Assembly (NCBI RefSeq): GCF_002980555.1
Contig: NZ_PVBT01000006.1
Span: 1-64,000, forward strand
DNA: 64,000 nucleotides
Origin: Phyllobacterium myrsinacearum
Lineage (GTDB): Bacteria > Pseudomonadota > Alphaproteobacteria > Rhizobiales > Rhizobiaceae
Direction: 5' to 3'
Shown: positions 4,021 through 13,060 of the stretch, one piece after another
How positions within the stretch are numbered: position 1 is the first letter of the stretch
Layout: each line of letters opens with the position of its first letter
Notes under the pieces: model-generated
Databases searched by the model: none
What the model saw: only the letters and a program-made list of their open reading frames with translations
What the model was told of the DNA's origin: nothing
Made by a program: the position numbers and the translations under genes

Positions 4021-4035
4021 GTTCTATTTATGTTC
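4021..4035 (+). promoter_or_regulatory. LexA (SOS) box of dinB
   Basis: GTTCTATTTATGTTC, an exact GTTC-N7-GTTC direct repeat, the LexA operator form of alphaproteobacteria. It ends 8 bases before the dinB ATG, so a bound repressor would also cover the start region. A second box with almost the same spacer lies at 10923-10937. Confidence 0.85.
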
Positions 4036-6501: not shown

Positions 6502-9500
6502 TTAAACCATCTCCACGTCGACCACGCCGGGAATCGCCTTCATCGCGCTGGCGACCTGCGGGCCGACGCGATAGCGGTGTGGCAATTCGATCTCCACTTC
6601 ACTGGCGCCGTTCTCCTTGATCAGGATGAGGGAGACAATCTGGCCGTCATTCTGCGGGGCGAGATAGGGCGTGATGGCGCTCAGCGGTTCGCTGGAGCGC
6701 ATATAGAGCCGCAACGCCTTCTGCATGCGCGTCGCTTCATCCTCAAGCGATTGCGCCGTCTGGATGCGCAGGCTGATGCCCTCTGGCCGATCTTCGGCGC
6801 CGACCGTCACCACAACGGAGCGTCCCGGCTCCAAGAGATCGCGGTACTGCGCCAGCGCCTCGGAGAAAAGCACCGCCTCAAACTGGCCCGATGCATCGGA
6901 AAACTGGATGATGCCCATCTTGTTGCCGGTCTTGGTCTTGCGTTCCTGCTTGGCGGTGATGGTTCCGGCGAGCCGTCCGGCATTGGCGCCGCGTTTGACC
7001 GCGGCGGAAAATTCGGCCCAGCTCTGCACCCGCATCTTTTCCAGGATCGGCCGGTATTCGTCGAGCGGGTGGGCGGAGAGGTAGAAACCGGCGGCTTCAA
7101 ACTCGCGCCGCAGTTTTTCCGCCGACAGCCATGGCGCCGCATTGGGCAGCTGCAGCCCCTGCGATCCGCCCGCGGCCATGCCGCCAAAAATATCCGCCTG
7201 CCCGCTGACGCTGTCTTCCTGGGTGCGCTGCGCATGGCCGATGATGCGGTCGAGACCGGCAATGAGCGCCGGGCGTTCGCGCCCGAAGCAATCGAATGCG
7301 CCAGCGTTGATCAGGCTTTCAAACACGCGCCGGTTGACAACGCGCGGGTCGATGCGCTCGCAGAAATCCTCAAGGCTGGCATAGGGCGTGTCGCCGCGCT
7401 TCTCGACGATATGGTCGACCGCCGCCTCGCCCACGCCCTTGATGGCAGCGAGCGAATAGAAAATACGGTTATCGCCGACTTCAAACAGGCGGAACGACGT
7501 GTTGACCGAAGGGGTGACCACCTCGATGCCCAGCCGCAGCGCCTCACGGCGGAAATCGTTGAGCTTGTCGGTATTGGCCATATCGTAGGCCATCGACGAG
7601 GCCAGGAACTCGACGGGATAGTGCGCCTTCATATAGGCCGTCTGGAACGACACGATGGCATAGGCAGCGGCGTGCGACTTGTTGAAGCCGTAATCGGCGA
7701 ATTTTGCCAAGAGGTCGAAAATGAAATTCGCCTGCGGCTTGGTCACACCGCGTTCCACCGCGCCGTCGACAAAGCGCTCGCGCTGCTTGTCCATTTCGGC
7801 GCGGATCTTCTTGCCCATGGCGCGGCGCAGAAGATCGGCTTCACCCAGCGTATAGCCGGACATTTCCTGCGCGATCTGCATCACCTGTTCCTGGTAGATG
7901 ATGACGCCCTGGGTTTCCTTGACGAGATGGTCGATCTTGGGATGGATCGACGCCATCTCCTCGTCGCCATTCTTGCGCGCATTGTAGGTCGGGATGTTTT
8001 CCATCGGCCCCGGACGGTACAGCGCCACAAGCGCGATAATATCCTCGATCCGGTCGGGCTTCATGCCGATCAGCGCCTTGCGCATGCCGGTGCTTTCCAC
8101 CTGGAACACGCCGACCGTCTCGCCGCGCGACAGCATTTCATAGCTGAGCTTGTCATCCAGCGGCAGATTGGACAAATCCACGGAAATGCCGCGCCGCTTG
8201 ACCAGATTGACGGCGGTCTGCAGCACCGTCAGGGTTTTCAGGCCGAGAAAGTCGAATTTGACCAGCCCCGCCTCTTCCACCATCTTCATGTTGAACTGCG
8301 TGACCGGCATGTCGGAACGCGGATCGCGATACATCGGCACGAGTTCGGACAGCGGACGGTCGCCGATGACGATACCGGCGGCGTGGGTCGAGGCGTGGCG
8401 GTAAAGCCCTTCCAGCTTCAGCGCAATGTCCAGCAGGCGCTCGACAACCGGTTCCTTGTCGCGCTCTTCGCGCAGGCGCGGCTCGTCCTCGATGGCCTTT
8501 GCCAGCGTCACCGGATTGGCCGGGTTGGCCGGAACCATCTTGGTCAGGCGGTCTACCTGACCATAGGGCATTTCGAGCACGCGGCCGACGTCGCGCAGCA
8601 CGGCGCGCGCCTGCAGCGTTCCGAAGGTGATGATCTGCGCCACCTGATCGCGGCCATATTTGGCCTGAACATAGCGGATGACCTCGTCGCGCCGTTCCTG
8701 GCAGAAATCGATGTCAAAGTCGGGCATCGAAACGCGGTCGGGATTGAGGAAGCGTTCGAACAGCAGGGAGAAGCGCAGCGGATCGACGTCGGTGATCGTC
8801 AGCGCATAGGCAACGAGCGAACCCGCACCGGAACCACGACCGGGACCGACAGGAATATCATGGGCTTTCGCCCATTTGATGAAGTCGGACACGATGAGGA
8901 AGTAACCCGGATATTTCATCCGGGTGATGATGGAAATCTCGTACTCCAGCCGCTCGGCATATTCCTGCTGCGTGTGGCCATCGGCCAGACCCAGCGTTTC
9001 GATGCGGCTTGCCAGCCCTTCGCGTGCCTGCCGCGCCAGTTCGTCGGCTTCCGCCTGCAGCGCCGCTTCGGGATCGTCGCTCTCCCCGGTGAAGCGCGGC
9101 AGGATCGGCGCGCGATTCTTCGGATAGTAGGAGCAGCGCAGCGCGATCTCGACGGTGTTTTCCAGAGCCTCGGGCAGATCGGCGAACAGCGCCACCATCT
9201 CGTCCTCGGTCTTGAGATAATGGTCGGGTGTCAGGCGGCGGCGGTCATCGATGGACAACAGTGAACCCGCCGCAATGGCCAGCAGCGCATCGTGCGCCTC
9301 ATAATCCGCGCTCTTGGAAAAGAACACGTCATTGGTGGCAACCAGAGGCAGTTCCAGCTCATAGGCAAGCGCGATATGGGTCGCTTCCAGGGTGCGGTCA
9401 TAGCCGCGATGGCGCTGCAGCTCGACATAGAGCCGGTCGCCATAGAGCGAGCGCAGATGAATGAGACGCTGACGGGCGCGGTCGATGCGGTCATCCTTGA

Positions 9501-10065
9501 TCGCCTTGGCGATCGGCCCTTCCGGGCCGCCGGAAAGAACGATGATCCCCTCGGTCAGCCCCGGCAGCCAGGAAGCGGCGACGTGGACGGGATCGCCGGC
9601 GGGCGTTTCCAGATAGGCGCGGCTGACAAGCCGGACAAGATTGGCATAGCCCGTTTCCGTCGCCGCCAGCAGCACGAGCGGCGCAAGACCGAGAGCTTCG
9701 CGCCGGTTGGCGCTGCGGCTTTCCTCGGCCTGATCGTGAAAGGCAATATCGAGCTGACAGCCGATGATCGGCTGCAAGCCGGATTTCGATCCCTTCTGGG
9801 CAAATTCAAGCGCCCCGAACAGATTGTTGGTGTCGGTAATGGCGATGGCCGGGCTTTTGTTCGCAACGGCGAGATCGATGACCTTGGCAACCTGCAGCGC
9901 GCCTTCGAGCAGGGAATAGGCGGAATGCACCCGCAGATGGACGAAACGAAGCGCCTGCTTTTCCGCATTGCCCGCGCCTGGGTTACCCTGTCCGTCTGCC
10001 ACTGTATCCATCTCCAGAAATTTTGAACGGAGAACGTGATTCACCGTTGGCGTATTCTCGAACAA
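6502..10065 (-). CDS. dnaE: DNA polymerase III alpha subunit
   Basis: About 1187 residues, the replicative DnaE1 type. Domain order: PHP (HLRVHSAYSLLEGAL near residue 45), palm with the catalytic acids in PDFDIDF and later KFDFLGLKTL, fingers/beta-binding region with a helix-hairpin-helix (IKGVGEAAVDHIV), and an OB fold near residue 1000 (GTITAKQERKTKTGNKMGI). A start at 10011 (MDTVADGQGN) is also possible and would remove 18 residues that are not clearly conserved; an AGGTGG lies about 13 bases before the longer start. DNA synthesis at the fork is its role, with the beta clamp. It is transcribed alone. Confidence 0.96.
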   Translation of the reverse strand: MFENTPTVNHVLRSKFLEMDTVADGQGNPGAGNAEKQALRFVHLRVHSAYSLLEGALQVAKVIDLAVANKSPAIAITDTNNLFGALEFAQKGSKSGLQPIIGCQLDIAFHDQAEESRSANRREALGLAPLVLLAATETGYANLVRLVSRAYLETPAGDPVHVAASWLPGLTEGIIVLSGGPEGPIAKAIKDDRIDRARQRLIHLRSLYGDRLYVELQRHRGYDRTLEATHIALAYELELPLVATNDVFFSKSADYEAHDALLAIAAGSLLSIDDRRRLTPDHYLKTEDEMVALFADLPEALENTVEIALRCSYYPKNRAPILPRFTGESDDPEAALQAEADELARQAREGLASRIETLGLADGHTQQEYAERLEYEISIITRMKYPGYFLIVSDFIKWAKAHDIPVGPGRGSGAGSLVAYALTITDVDPLRFSLLFERFLNPDRVSMPDFDIDFCQERRDEVIRYVQAKYGRDQVAQIITFGTLQARAVLRDVGRVLEMPYGQVDRLTKMVPANPANPVTLAKAIEDEPRLREERDKEPVVERLLDIALKLEGLYRHASTHAAGIVIGDRPLSELVPMYRDPRSDMPVTQFNMKMVEEAGLVKFDFLGLKTLTVLQTAVNLVKRRGISVDLSNLPLDDKLSYEMLSRGETVGVFQVESTGMRKALIGMKPDRIEDIIALVALYRPGPMENIPTYNARKNGDEEMASIHPKIDHLVKETQGVIIYQEQVMQIAQEMSGYTLGEADLLRRAMGKKIRAEMDKQRERFVDGAVERGVTKPQANFIFDLLAKFADYGFNKSHAAAYAIVSFQTAYMKAHYPVEFLASSMAYDMANTDKLNDFRREALRLGIEVVTPSVNTSFRLFEVGDNRIFYSLAAIKGVGEAAVDHIVEKRGDTPYASLEDFCERIDPRVVNRRVFESLINAGAFDCFGRERPALIAGLDRIIGHAQRTQEDSVSGQADIFGGMAAGGSQGLQLPNAAPWLSAEKLRREFEAAGFYLSAHPLDEYRPILEKMRVQSWAEFSAAVKRGANAGRLAGTITAKQERKTKTGNKMGIIQFSDASGQFEAVLFSEALAQYRDLLEPGRSVVVTVGAEDRPEGISLRIQTAQSLEDEATRMQKALRLYMRSSEPLSAITPYLAPQNDGQIVSLILIKENGASEVEIELPHRYRVGPQVASAMKAIPGVVDVEMV

Positions 10066-10149
10066 TGGTCAGGGGGTGTCCACCTATACTTTGGCCGCCG
10101 GATCGTGCGACTGTGAACAACCTGTGATGCGCTATCGAAAGGCCCGCGA

Positions 10150-10731
10150 ATGAGCAATGCATATCCCGAAATCTATCTGGTGCGGCACGGTCAGACGGAG
10201 TGGAGCCTGTCCGGCCAGCACACCGGCCGGACCGACATACCGCTGACGGCCGCGGGCGAAGCGGCGGCCCGCACCCTCGCCGGCCGCCTGCATGGCCTTG
10301 TCTTTTCCGCCGTCTGGTCGAGCCCGTCCCAGCGCGCGTCGAAAACCTGCGTCCTCGCCGGATTTGGCGACACCCGTGTGATCAAGGACGACCTGGCGGA
10401 ATGGGATTATGGCACCTATGAGGGCATCACCACCAAGGCGATCCTGGCGGAGCGCCCCGGCTGGCAGCTTTTTCGCGACGGCTGCCCCGGCGGCGAATCC
10501 ACTGGTGATGTCGGTGCGCGTGCCGACCGGATCATCCATGCCATACGCGACGCGAATGACCGGGTGCTCATTTTTTCAAGTTCGCATTTCCTGCGGGTGC
10601 TGACGGCCCGCTGGCTTGGCTTGCCGCCCGAAGGCGGTGCGCTTTTCGTTCTGGATACCGCCAGCATCAGTGTGCTCGGCTATGAGCACGACCTGACGGA
10701 ACCGGTTGTTCGCAGGTGGAACCAGACATGA
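10150..10731 (+). CDS. Histidine phosphatase family protein
   Basis: 193 residues with the branch-1 signature VRHGQTEW (catalytic His and Arg), a second arginine in SSPSQRA, the acid in AEWDYGTYEG, and the second histidine in FSSSHFLRV. This is a complete phosphoglycerate-mutase-like fold, probably a phosphatase rather than a cofactor-dependent mutase because it is short (mutases are about 230-250 residues). The substrate is unknown. It is divergent from dnaE and converges on the small gene at 10797-10883. Confidence 0.85.
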   Translation: MSNAYPEIYLVRHGQTEWSLSGQHTGRTDIPLTAAGEAAARTLAGRLHGLVFSAVWSSPSQRASKTCVLAGFGDTRVIKDDLAEWDYGTYEGITTKAILAERPGWQLFRDGCPGGESTGDVGARADRIIHAIRDANDRVLIFSSSHFLRVLTARWLGLPPEGGALFVLDTASISVLGYEHDLTEPVVRRWNQT

Positions 10732-10796
10732 CGATGGGCGACGCCCGCGGGCCAGGAACCAGGCGAAACCTAGTCATCCCGGCCCCGCCGGTTCTT

Positions 10797-10883
10797 TCAG
10801 ATAACGCTGACCCACATGGCGAATGTTGCAATAAACAGACTGACTGTAACGAATGACATGACGTCCTGGAAAAGTTCGCTCAT
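10797..10883 (-). CDS. Small SOS-controlled membrane peptide, SidA-like candidate
   Basis: A 28-codon frame. Residues 1-7 are MSELFQD; residues 8-28 form one hydrophobic stretch (VMSFVTVSLFI, then ATFAMWVSVI) long enough to cross the membrane once. A good ribosome site, GAAGAAGGG, ends about 9 bases before the ATG, and a LexA box lies 40 bases upstream on the same strand. The size, single helix and LexA control are those of Caulobacter SidA, a 29-residue SOS-induced peptide that blocks division through FtsW/FtsN; E. coli TisB (29 residues, SOS toxin) is the other precedent. Similarity at residue level is not claimed. That it is translated is inferred from the ribosome site and the promoter layout. 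Confidence 0.7.
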   Translation of the reverse strand: MSELFQDVMSFVTVSLFIATFAMWVSVI

Positions 10884-10910
10884 CGGTAAAACCCTTCTTC
10901 GTTTGCTCTA

Positions 10911-10946
10911 TGTATATGTTTTGTTCTATTTTTGTTCCAAAGTCAA
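10911..10946 (-). promoter_or_regulatory. LexA box and promoter of the small membrane peptide gene
   Basis: On the minus strand GAACAAAAATAGAAC (10937-10923) is an exact GAAC-N7-GAAC LexA operator. It sits between TTGGAA (10940-10935) and TATACA (10916-10911), a plausible -35/-10 pair with an 18-base spacer, so LexA would block RNA polymerase directly. The alternative -35 TTGACT at 10946-10941 gives too long a spacer. Confidence 0.8.
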
Positions 10947-11031
10947 GCGCACCAAAACCACCATTGGCGCTATGGTTGTCGATTTCTTAACAGAGGGTAA
11001 AACGCACGCCGCCCCGCGGGCACCGACAAAC

Positions 11032-11065
11032 GCAAACGGGCACGGATTTCTCCGCGCCCGTTTGC
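11032..11065 (-). terminator. Stem-loop after lolD, likely terminator
   Basis: Perfect 10-base inverted repeat GCAAACGGGC / GCCCGTTTGC with a 14-base loop, starting 19 bases after the lolD stop. The downstream T tract on the minus strand is poor (GTTTGTC), so it may act as a weak terminator or 3' stabiliser. Confidence 0.5.
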
Positions 11066-11084
11066 TATGTATGGCGTGAACGGA

Positions 11085-11771
11085 TCAGGAGACCGTGGTG
11101 ATCTTGCCGTCCTTCAGGGTGACCCGGCGATCCATGCGACGGGCAAGTTCGTGATTGTGCGTGGCGATCATTGCCGACAGGCCGGACTGGCGCACCAGGG
11201 CCTCCAGTGCCTCGAACACATAGGATGACGTCACCGGATCGAGATTGCCGGTGGGCTCATCGGCAAGCAGCACGAGCGGCGCATTGGCCACGGCACGGGC
11301 GATGGCGACGCGCTGCTGTTCGCCGCCGGACAGTTCCGACGGACGGTGCGAGGCGCGCGCGCCCACCTTCATATAGTCGAGCAGCTGCTGGGCGCGTTCC
11401 GACGCGACGCGCGGTTTCATGCCACGGATCATCTGCGGCATCATCACGTTTTCGAGTGCGGAGAATTCCGGCAGGAGATGATGGAACTGATAGACGAAAC
11501 CGATGTCGTTGCGGCGGATCGCCGTGCGCTCTTCATCGGACAGCGAGCCGCAGGCGCGCCCGTCCAGAATCACATCGCCATTGTCGGGCCGCTCCAAAAG
11601 GCCAGCCGTGTGCAGAAGCGTCGACTTGCCGGCACCCGACGGCGCGACAAGCGCAACCATCTCGCCCCGGCCGAGGGAGAAATTGGCATCGTCCAGGATA
11701 ACCAGCTCCCGGTCGATCTCATTGTACCGGCGGCCGACACTGGTCAGCTGAAGAATGGGCCCGGCTGACAT
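11085..11771 (-). CDS. lolD: Lipoprotein-releasing ABC transporter ATPase
   Basis: 228 residues with Walker [10 protein letters not shown], signature LSGGEQQR, Walker [12 protein letters not shown] and the H-loop ATHNHELA. The [10 protein letters not shown] segment after the Q-loop is typical of LolD. It powers removal of outer-membrane lipoproteins from the inner membrane to LolA. The start overlaps the stop of the permease gene by one base (TAATG on the minus strand), so translation is coupled. It is the last gene of proS-lolC-lolD. Confidence 0.95.
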
Positions 11772-13060
11772 TATTCGTACCTCAAGGCTTCAACGGGATC
11801 GAGCTTGGCCGCGCGCCATGCGGGGAAAAGCGTCGCCAGAAACGACAGGAAGAGCGCCATCAGGATGACCGAAAAGGTTTCATTGAAATCCATCTTGGCG
11901 GGCAAGGTGCTCAGGAAATAAAGCTCCGGATTGAACAGAGTTGTTCCAGACAACCAGGAGAAGAATTGCCGGATGCGTTCGACGTTCAGGCAGACGAGGA
12001 CGCCGAGAGCCACACCGGCGATGGTGCCGCTGACCCCGATGGCGGCACCCGTCATCAGGAAGATGCGCAGCACCGAGTTACGCGTCGCCCCCATGGTGCG
12101 CAGGATGGCGATATCGCGGCCCTTGTCCTTGACCAGCATGATCAGGCCGGAAATGATGTTCAGCGCCGCCACGAGCACGATCAGCGTCAGGATCATGAAC
12201 ATGACGTTGCGCTCCACCTGCAGGGCGGAGAAGAAGGTCACGTTGCGCTGGCGCCAGTCGGTGAGCATCAGCGGCCGCTGCGCCGCATCCTCGATCGGCT
12301 TTTTCAGCGCGTCGACATTGTCGGGATTGTTGGCGAAAATCTCGATGGACTGGACCTTGCCTTCCTGGTTGAAATAGAGCTGGGCTTCATCCAGCGGCAT
12401 CAGCGCGATCGAGGCGTCATATTCGGACATGCCGATCTGGAAAATGGCGACGACCGGATAGGATTTCACCCGCGGTGAAACCCCGAGCGGCGTCACATCG
12501 CCATCCAGCGACATCAATGTCAGCTTGTCGCCGATGCCAAGGCCCAGATTTTCCGCCATGCGGGTGCCAATAGCCACGCCGCCCGCCTTGTCGAAATTGG
12601 CGAAGGTGCCCTGCTTGACGTTCTTGGCGACGAGCTGGAGCTTTTTGATGTCCTCTTCGCGCAGACCCCGCACGAGCGTGCCGGTGCCCTGCCCGACATT
12701 GCCCTGGCCCAGCACCTGCCCCTCCACCACGGGAATGGCGAAGGAAACACCGGGAACCGCATCGATCCGCTTGATCACATTGTCATAATCATCCAGCGGC
12801 CGGTCCATCGGCTGCATGATGACATGACCGTTGATGCCGAGAATGCGCGTCAGCAATTCGCTGCGGAAACCGTTCATGACGGCCATGACGATAATGAGCG
12901 TCGCCACGCCGAGCATGATGCCGGTGAAGGAGAAACCGGCAATCACCGAAATAAACGTTTCCTTGCGCCGGGCGCGCAGATAGCGCCATGCGATCATCCG
13001 CTCATAGGAAGAGAACGGTTTTGGACCCTGTTGTACAGCAGTGACGGCCGATTCGGTCAT
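11771..13060 (-). CDS. lolC: Lipoprotein-releasing system permease LolC/LolE
   Basis: 429 residues with an N-terminal membrane helix (about 40-60), a large periplasmic domain, and three C-terminal helices (about 290-310, 335-365, 390-415), the FtsX/LolCE layout. The [16 protein letters not shown] segment is the coupling helix that contacts LolD. Alphaproteobacteria often carry one LolC/E-type permease that works as a homodimer (sometimes named LolF); only one is present here. The start overlaps the end of proS by four bases (ATGA). Confidence 0.93.

Follow-up and report, generated by a model that had tools for sequence, protein, structure and literature searches.

A 28-codon gene behind a LexA box in Phyllobacterium myrsinacearum and its very probable relationship to the SOS division inhibitor SidA

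The peptide gene, its neighbors, and its control region

The window analyzed here is a 64,000-nucleotide stretch of the Phyllobacterium myrsinacearum genome. On its minus strand, a 28-codon open reading frame (ORF) with an ATG start and a TGA stop runs from 10883 to 10797 (10797..10883, stop included) and encodes the peptide MSELFQDVMSFVTVSLFIATFAMWVSVI. The peptide consists of one hydrophobic helix after an acidic N-terminus and is predicted to cross the membrane once. Its best 19-residue segment has a hydropathy of 2.04, a hydrophobic moment of 0.38, and no charged residues. A ribosome-binding site, GAAGAAGGG (10892..10900, minus strand), lies 8 nt before the ATG. The frame, the single helix, the acidic N-terminus, and the upstream ribosome site are as the first-pass annotation of this DNA had described them. 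The peptide is unmatched in NCBIfam (0 families at E up to 10), Pfam, and PHROGs. An 87-residue antisense ORF (10816-11079, plus strand) overlaps both the peptide gene and its control site. We regard it as a shadow of the conservation on the sense strand because its ATG is kept in only 6 of 21 genus genomes, the window's included, and its frame varies from 17 to at least 106 residues across those 21.

Upstream of the peptide gene and its control site are lolD, encoding an ABC ATPase (11085..11771, minus strand), and a gene that we read as a lolC/E-type permease (11771..13060, minus strand). Downstream is dnaE (6502..10065, minus strand; these are the limits of the open frame, and the true start is probably further in). 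Between the peptide gene and dnaE, a histidine phosphatase gene is located on the opposite strand (10150..10731, plus strand); it is found in 6 of the 21 genus loci, the window's included (matches in L004-L008 and L012). The first-pass annotation had named dnaE, the histidine phosphatase, and lolD correctly.

An exact GAAC-N7-GAAC LexA box, GAACAAAAATAGAAC, is present at 10923..10937 (minus strand) upstream of the frame. The box had been proposed to sit between -35 and -10 elements. The -35 side of this proposal holds, as a TTGAC lies at 10942..10946 (minus strand) and CTTGAC is invariant in the 21 genus genomes. The -10 side is uncertain: the only TATACA (10911..10916, minus strand), a possible element, is about 24 nt from the -35, and no promoter with a spacer of 16-18 nt came out of a sigma-70 scan. 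The bare GAAC-N7-GAAC pattern means little by itself, since it occurs twice in the window versus 1.66 times expected and 187 times in the whole genome versus 109 for the reversed pattern, and its statistics were rejected as evidence. The strict, AT-spaced form GAACAWWWWWRGAAC has only five sites in the 5.4-Mb genome and none for the reversed control. The sites are at recA, at dinB, at a second Y-family polymerase gene, between ssb and uvrA, and at this peptide; the other four are all at DNA-damage genes (recA, Y-family polymerase, and ssb/uvrA confirmed with Pfam). What decides that the gene is real is its conservation, rather than the count of bare boxes.

Three further observations concern LexA boxes. 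The dinB box is located at 4021-4035 of the window, immediately upstream of dinB and beside pleD and divK (the latter named by reading). A box identical to the peptide's is found at the second Y-family polymerase gene, beside a recJ-like frame (L034; G000 contig C1, 936782-936796). Before the peptide gene, several relatives (L022, L038, L043, L163, and L166-L168) have two exact boxes or, in L168, one exact box with near-boxes after it.

Conservation in the genus and distribution of relatives

The peptide was found in all 20 other genus genomes searched, with 89-100% identity, and each has a GAAC-N7-GAAC box spaced comparably from the frame. A frame lost in relatives that retain the box had been named beforehand as the outcome that would count against the gene; across the genus, frame and box are kept together in 21 of 21 genomes, the window's among them. 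Among 20 variable codons 14 vary only synonymously, and 19 of 25 variable sites are at third positions. The mean dN/dS over 208 pairs is 0.023 (dN 0.016, dS 0.71). The peptide frame is under strong purifying selection. The helical periodicity of conservation within the peptide is not significant (p 0.18), so that no binding face is demonstrated on the helix. The exact box and short ORF occur at the peptide locus of Phyllobacterium sp. 628 (NZ_CP050301.1).

For more distant relatives, protein searches were carried out without use of the box. A single-peptide search of 60 genomes (E up to 1) matched 7 of 15 genomes from other genera of the family, leaving 8 of the 15 without a match; among 24 genomes from the order's other families it matched 2. 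Nine of these loci were fetched (L022-L030), and in seven the matching short ORF stands behind an exact box. L027 has no box, and in L023 the box is about 390 nt upstream with another ORF between. The peptide gene adjoins lolD in L024, L025, L026, L028, and L030, and dnaE in L029. A 13-row profile (A1), which left out the boxless L027 and kept L023 with its distant box, matched 137 genomes in a sample of 297 from the order (E up to 0.5), and many of its weaker matches are plainly due to chance. Among 29 new loci from this sample (L038-L066; L040 is from the same genome as L028), 23 have a box and matching ORF, giving 30 of 38 distant loci in total. In 27 of these 30, lolC, lolD, or dnaE lies within 1.5 kb, the exceptions being L022, L043, and L044. 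L051, with a 36-bit ORF behind two boxes of one mismatch each, was taken as a member and left out of the boxed count. Five loci that lack an exact box (L047, L052, and L064-L066) were treated as chance; in the two rechecked, L047 and L064, the best ORFs score 0.5 and 1.1 bits.

With L077, L087, and L270 counted as well, 12 families of the order are represented among the boxed members. The peptides range from about 26 to 43 residues in length and show the pattern [RQ]D-x2-[AS]-[FL]-x5-F-x6-W. Three small genomes of the window's family (G025, G026, and G374; 1.1-2.0 Mb) gave no match. Exact boxes with short ORFs were also seen in 7 of the first 22 of 80 named loci anchored on LolD, namely those of Phyllobacterium sp. 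628, Rhizobium sp. S152, Tardiphaga, Bradyrhizobium mercantei, and an alphaproteobacterial, a Caulobacterales, and a Phenylobacterium assembly. In Rhizobium wenxiniae the peptide is present and the boxes are imperfect, and the Sphingomonas and Novosphingobium loci among these 22 have no exact box with a short ORF.

To look beyond the order, we sampled 192 genomes of the class, found dnaE in 169, and took the 1.8 kb upstream from 80 of these (less for L106). Fifteen of the 80 have an exact box near dnaE with a short ORF after it. Two of these belong to the window's order, and the remaining 13 are spread over nine families beyond it. L116 and L125 also have boxes, but far from dnaE, and were not counted. 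A second, 24-row profile was built from Hyphomicrobiales peptides of boxed or syntenic loci, with a few trimmed to inner start codons and near-duplicates dropped. Scored with this Hyphomicrobiales-only, box-blind profile, eight loci reach at least 7.8 bits, and all eight have the exact box; the best opposite-strand ORF scores 3.4. These eight represent one family of the order and four outside, and the other seven boxed loci are candidates by place, box, and length only. Since 65 of the 80 dnaE loci showed no exact box with a short ORF, the gene is far from universal. Based on these comparisons, putative SidA-like genes in at least 12 Hyphomicrobiales families are new here, and we add, more tentatively, candidates in nine families outside the order, besides the Caulobacterales, as well as a single copy in a prophage.

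Extra copies were encountered as well. In one genome (L023/L271; G028 contig C37), a second SidA-like peptide, MRDLVQDTCSFVAMGLFLISAAFWIGAL, scores 35.4 bits with a profile that does not contain it. A GAAC-N7-GAAC box precedes it by about 390 nt, and the surrounding region is prophage-like, containing a phage integrase, a CII-like activator, and a DUF5131 gene; a chromosomal copy with a box is present elsewhere in this genome (L263). In another genome, G422, a longer SidA-like peptide (40 residues, 22.4 bits) occurs twice near contig ends, without a LexA box (L264 and L265; contigs C29 and C41); two more equal matches are on contigs C46 and C47, and a boxed copy is in L266. Searches of phage records gave no further phage-borne copy, and plasmids gave no match to a SidA-like peptide. 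No relatives of the repressor neighboring the prophage copy were found in viral contigs, and 80 viral loci carrying the DUF5131 gene that neighbors the prophage copy contain no SidA-like ORF above 7.9 bits.

Relationship to Caulobacter SidA

The link to SidA was drawn through the Caulobacter crescentus locus. The protein in PDB entry 9g85, which we take to be C. crescentus PleD, matches two genomes at 100% and 99% identity over the stretch used, and both have a box and a 29-codon ORF upstream of dnaE. In L168, a nucleoside hydrolase gene (Pfam E 2e-79) is found beyond the 29-codon ORF, followed by lolD. The NCBIfam model NF033228 identifies the C. crescentus ORF as SidA (E 2.2e-20, 72 bits versus a cut-off of 35). 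Published papers give sidA as CCNA_02004 (PMC11034885), CCNA_02005 as a nucleoside hydrolase (PMC3667746), and dnaE as CC1926 (table in PMC1839093). The number pairs for lexA (CC1902 and CCNA_01979; PMC1839093, PMC11535069) and recN (CC1983 and CCNA_02062; PMC1839093, PMC12700426) in these papers place dnaE at CCNA_02003 to 02005 and therefore beside sidA. The gene order at the C. crescentus locus agrees with these published locus numbers. The window gene has the same type of location, upstream of dnaE and near lolD, with the phosphatase gene between peptide and dnaE. The first-pass annotation had stated that the surroundings give no other explanation for the box; on the contrary, dnaE and lolD are themselves the clue, as the C. 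crescentus SidA locus has them likewise.

To compare the sequences, the 24-row profile was used on 24 Caulobacterales loci, none of which contributed to either profile. The ORF at the sidA position ranks first among all ORFs of 20-60 residues in 23 of the 24, and 17 have an exact box. No candidate is present in L172, and the margin in L162 is 0.1 bit. The winning ORFs of L150 (6.2 bits) and L162 (3.5 bits) fall below the viral background, the best of 17,678 ORF variants in the 80 viral loci scoring 7.9 bits. C. crescentus SidA itself scores 12.2 bits, which is weak in absolute terms and was reached by 3 of 2000 shuffles preserving the separate compositions of the N-terminus and the membrane segment. 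In the reverse direction, NF033228 does not match the window peptide at E up to 10 (cut-off 35 bits). It should be noted that this model is narrow: none of 289 class genomes passes its cut-off. In two of them that belong to the Caulobacter family, G524 and G111, it gives the ORF at the sidA position 21.4 and 18.1 bits, and the cut-off looks too strict even within that family. A Phenylobacterium peptide passes with 58 bits, and seven of 14 named control genomes give a signal, Caulobacter vibrioides among them, with one of the 14 over the cut-off. As NCBIfam, Pfam, and PHROGs miss the peptide and the model finds 0 of 289, our assignment rests on locus, control, and weak similarity rather than on NF033228.

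SidA is a very short protein with one transmembrane helix, and by prediction the window peptide is as well (28 residues, hydropathy 2.04). The peptide resembles C. crescentus SidA (CCNA_02004, NF033228) in length (28 versus 29 residues), in its single helix, in its GAAC-N7-GAAC box, and in its place upstream of dnaE in the lolD neighborhood. An ungapped alignment by eye shows similar residues at R/Q6, D/E7, A/S10, L/F11, V12, S/T13, V14, and F17. Only 4 of 28 residues are identical in that alignment, however, and the N-terminus is acidic in the window peptide and basic in SidA, while the conserved Trp is at position 24 rather than 19. The window peptide also differs in lacking a match to NF033228, and for it a SidA-like function would be by analogy. 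The loci differ in that a nucleoside hydrolase gene separates lolD and sidA in C. crescentus, whereas in the window a histidine phosphatase gene separates the peptide gene from dnaE. The shared location, the box, the NF033228 call in C. crescentus, and the first rank of the profile in 23 of 24 loci lead us to conclude that the window peptide is, with high probability, a diverged orthologue of SidA that escapes the NCBI model. Of the two roles put forward in the first-pass annotation, a SidA-like division inhibitor or a TisB-like toxin, the former thus gains support from the common neighborhood, the same kind of control, and the detectable similarity of the sequences. The gene, its control site, the selection on it, a locus common to SidA, and a weak but above-chance similarity are established.

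Proposed function and competing explanations

According to PMC4211646, SidA is a 29-residue protein of the inner membrane and acts as the primary SOS division inhibitor in Caulobacter. It interacts with FtsW and FtsN, is suppressed by mutations in FtsW or FtsI, and is thought to hold the FtsW/I/N complex inactive. A 2026 paper predicts that SidA binds TM7 of FtsW, in models not of high confidence (PMC13396833). The simplest account, by analogy, is that the window gene does the same, and we consider it likely that the ORF is a genuine gene, repressed by LexA, that encodes a diverged SidA orthologue, an SOS peptide inhibiting the septal-synthesis complex. Upon DNA damage, RecA would trigger self-cleavage of LexA and the peptide would be made. 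The peptide would then enter the inner membrane as a single helix and, as proposed for Caulobacter SidA, keep the FtsW/FtsI/FtsN septal-synthesis complex inactive, and the block would end when repair is complete and LexA is back. LexA binding, SOS induction, membrane insertion, target, and division arrest are what we infer in this scheme, by which the peptide probably stops division in these bacteria during DNA repair.

FtsW and FtsN are general divisome proteins. This argues against a reading in which an SOS membrane peptide of SidA ancestry has acquired another target in the Hyphomicrobiales, such as the polar-growth machinery or an envelope protein, and nothing positive was found for another target. 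The growth of Rhizobiales from the pole, as stated in PMC8546619, and the divergence in N-terminal charge and Trp position speak for this reading, which we regard as improbable.

The other role put forward in the first-pass annotation was that of a TisB-like SOS toxin, which would assemble in the membrane, lower the proton motive force, promote persisters, and be held in check by an antisense RNA. TisB, the E. coli type I toxin, shares with the window peptide its size, SOS control, and membrane character, so that the size, single helix, and LexA box would suit it. TisB-type toxins have an amphipathic transmembrane helix with charged residues and an adjacent antisense RNA of the istR type. The helix of the window peptide is uncharged, unlike that of TisB, and a scan of 9900-12000 against Rfam, which covers the RNAs described there, returned isrN alone with 22.1 bits versus a gathering score of 44, so that no antitoxin RNA was recognized. 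NCBIfam gave no family at E up to 10. The location is mostly conserved and common to SidA, and the frame is under purifying selection with the low dN/dS given above. The toxin half of the first-pass proposal is left without support, and a TisB-like pore toxin is unlikely, more so than a SidA descendant with a new target.

Least probable of all, to the point of being very doubtful, is that the ORF is a leader peptide or marks a LexA-controlled promoter for dnaE and is relevant for polymerase expression alone: it is close upstream of dnaE in Caulobacter and other relatives, on the same strand in many, but an opposite-strand gene intervenes here and at five further loci of the genus, selection acts on the amino-acid sequence, and one copy is away from dnaE in a prophage-like region. 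Both the TisB and the leader-peptide readings explain less than the SidA-like reading.

Division inhibitors of other bacteria offer a functional parallel. YneA, SosA, and ChiZ (of Bacillus, Staphylococcus, and Mycobacterium) are longer than the window peptide, and no common origin with it is indicated. As described in PMC13396833, they are DNA-damage-induced membrane proteins that block late division, to which a SidA-like window peptide would be comparable; YneA and ChiZ differ from it in having LysM domains.

Within the literature searched, no SOS division inhibitor was found for the Hyphomicrobiales. Neither was a statement of SidA outside Caulobacter and its relatives found in the partial texts searched, which did not include the original 2011 SidA paper (Modell et al.). 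A broader view, to which we give about even chances, is that SidA dates far back in the Alphaproteobacteria as an SOS checkpoint peptide and is no speciality of Caulobacter. In this view its gene sits between lolD and dnaE in many families and was overlooked because gene callers miss genes this short and the NCBI model reaches only close relatives of Caulobacter. Temperate phages would have acquired copies, perhaps to hold host division during prophage induction. If the SidA-like reading is true, rhizobia and their kin would have a testable candidate for an SOS division inhibitor, the SidA checkpoint would be widespread, and dozens of diverged sequences would be available from which the FtsW-contacting residues might be deduced.
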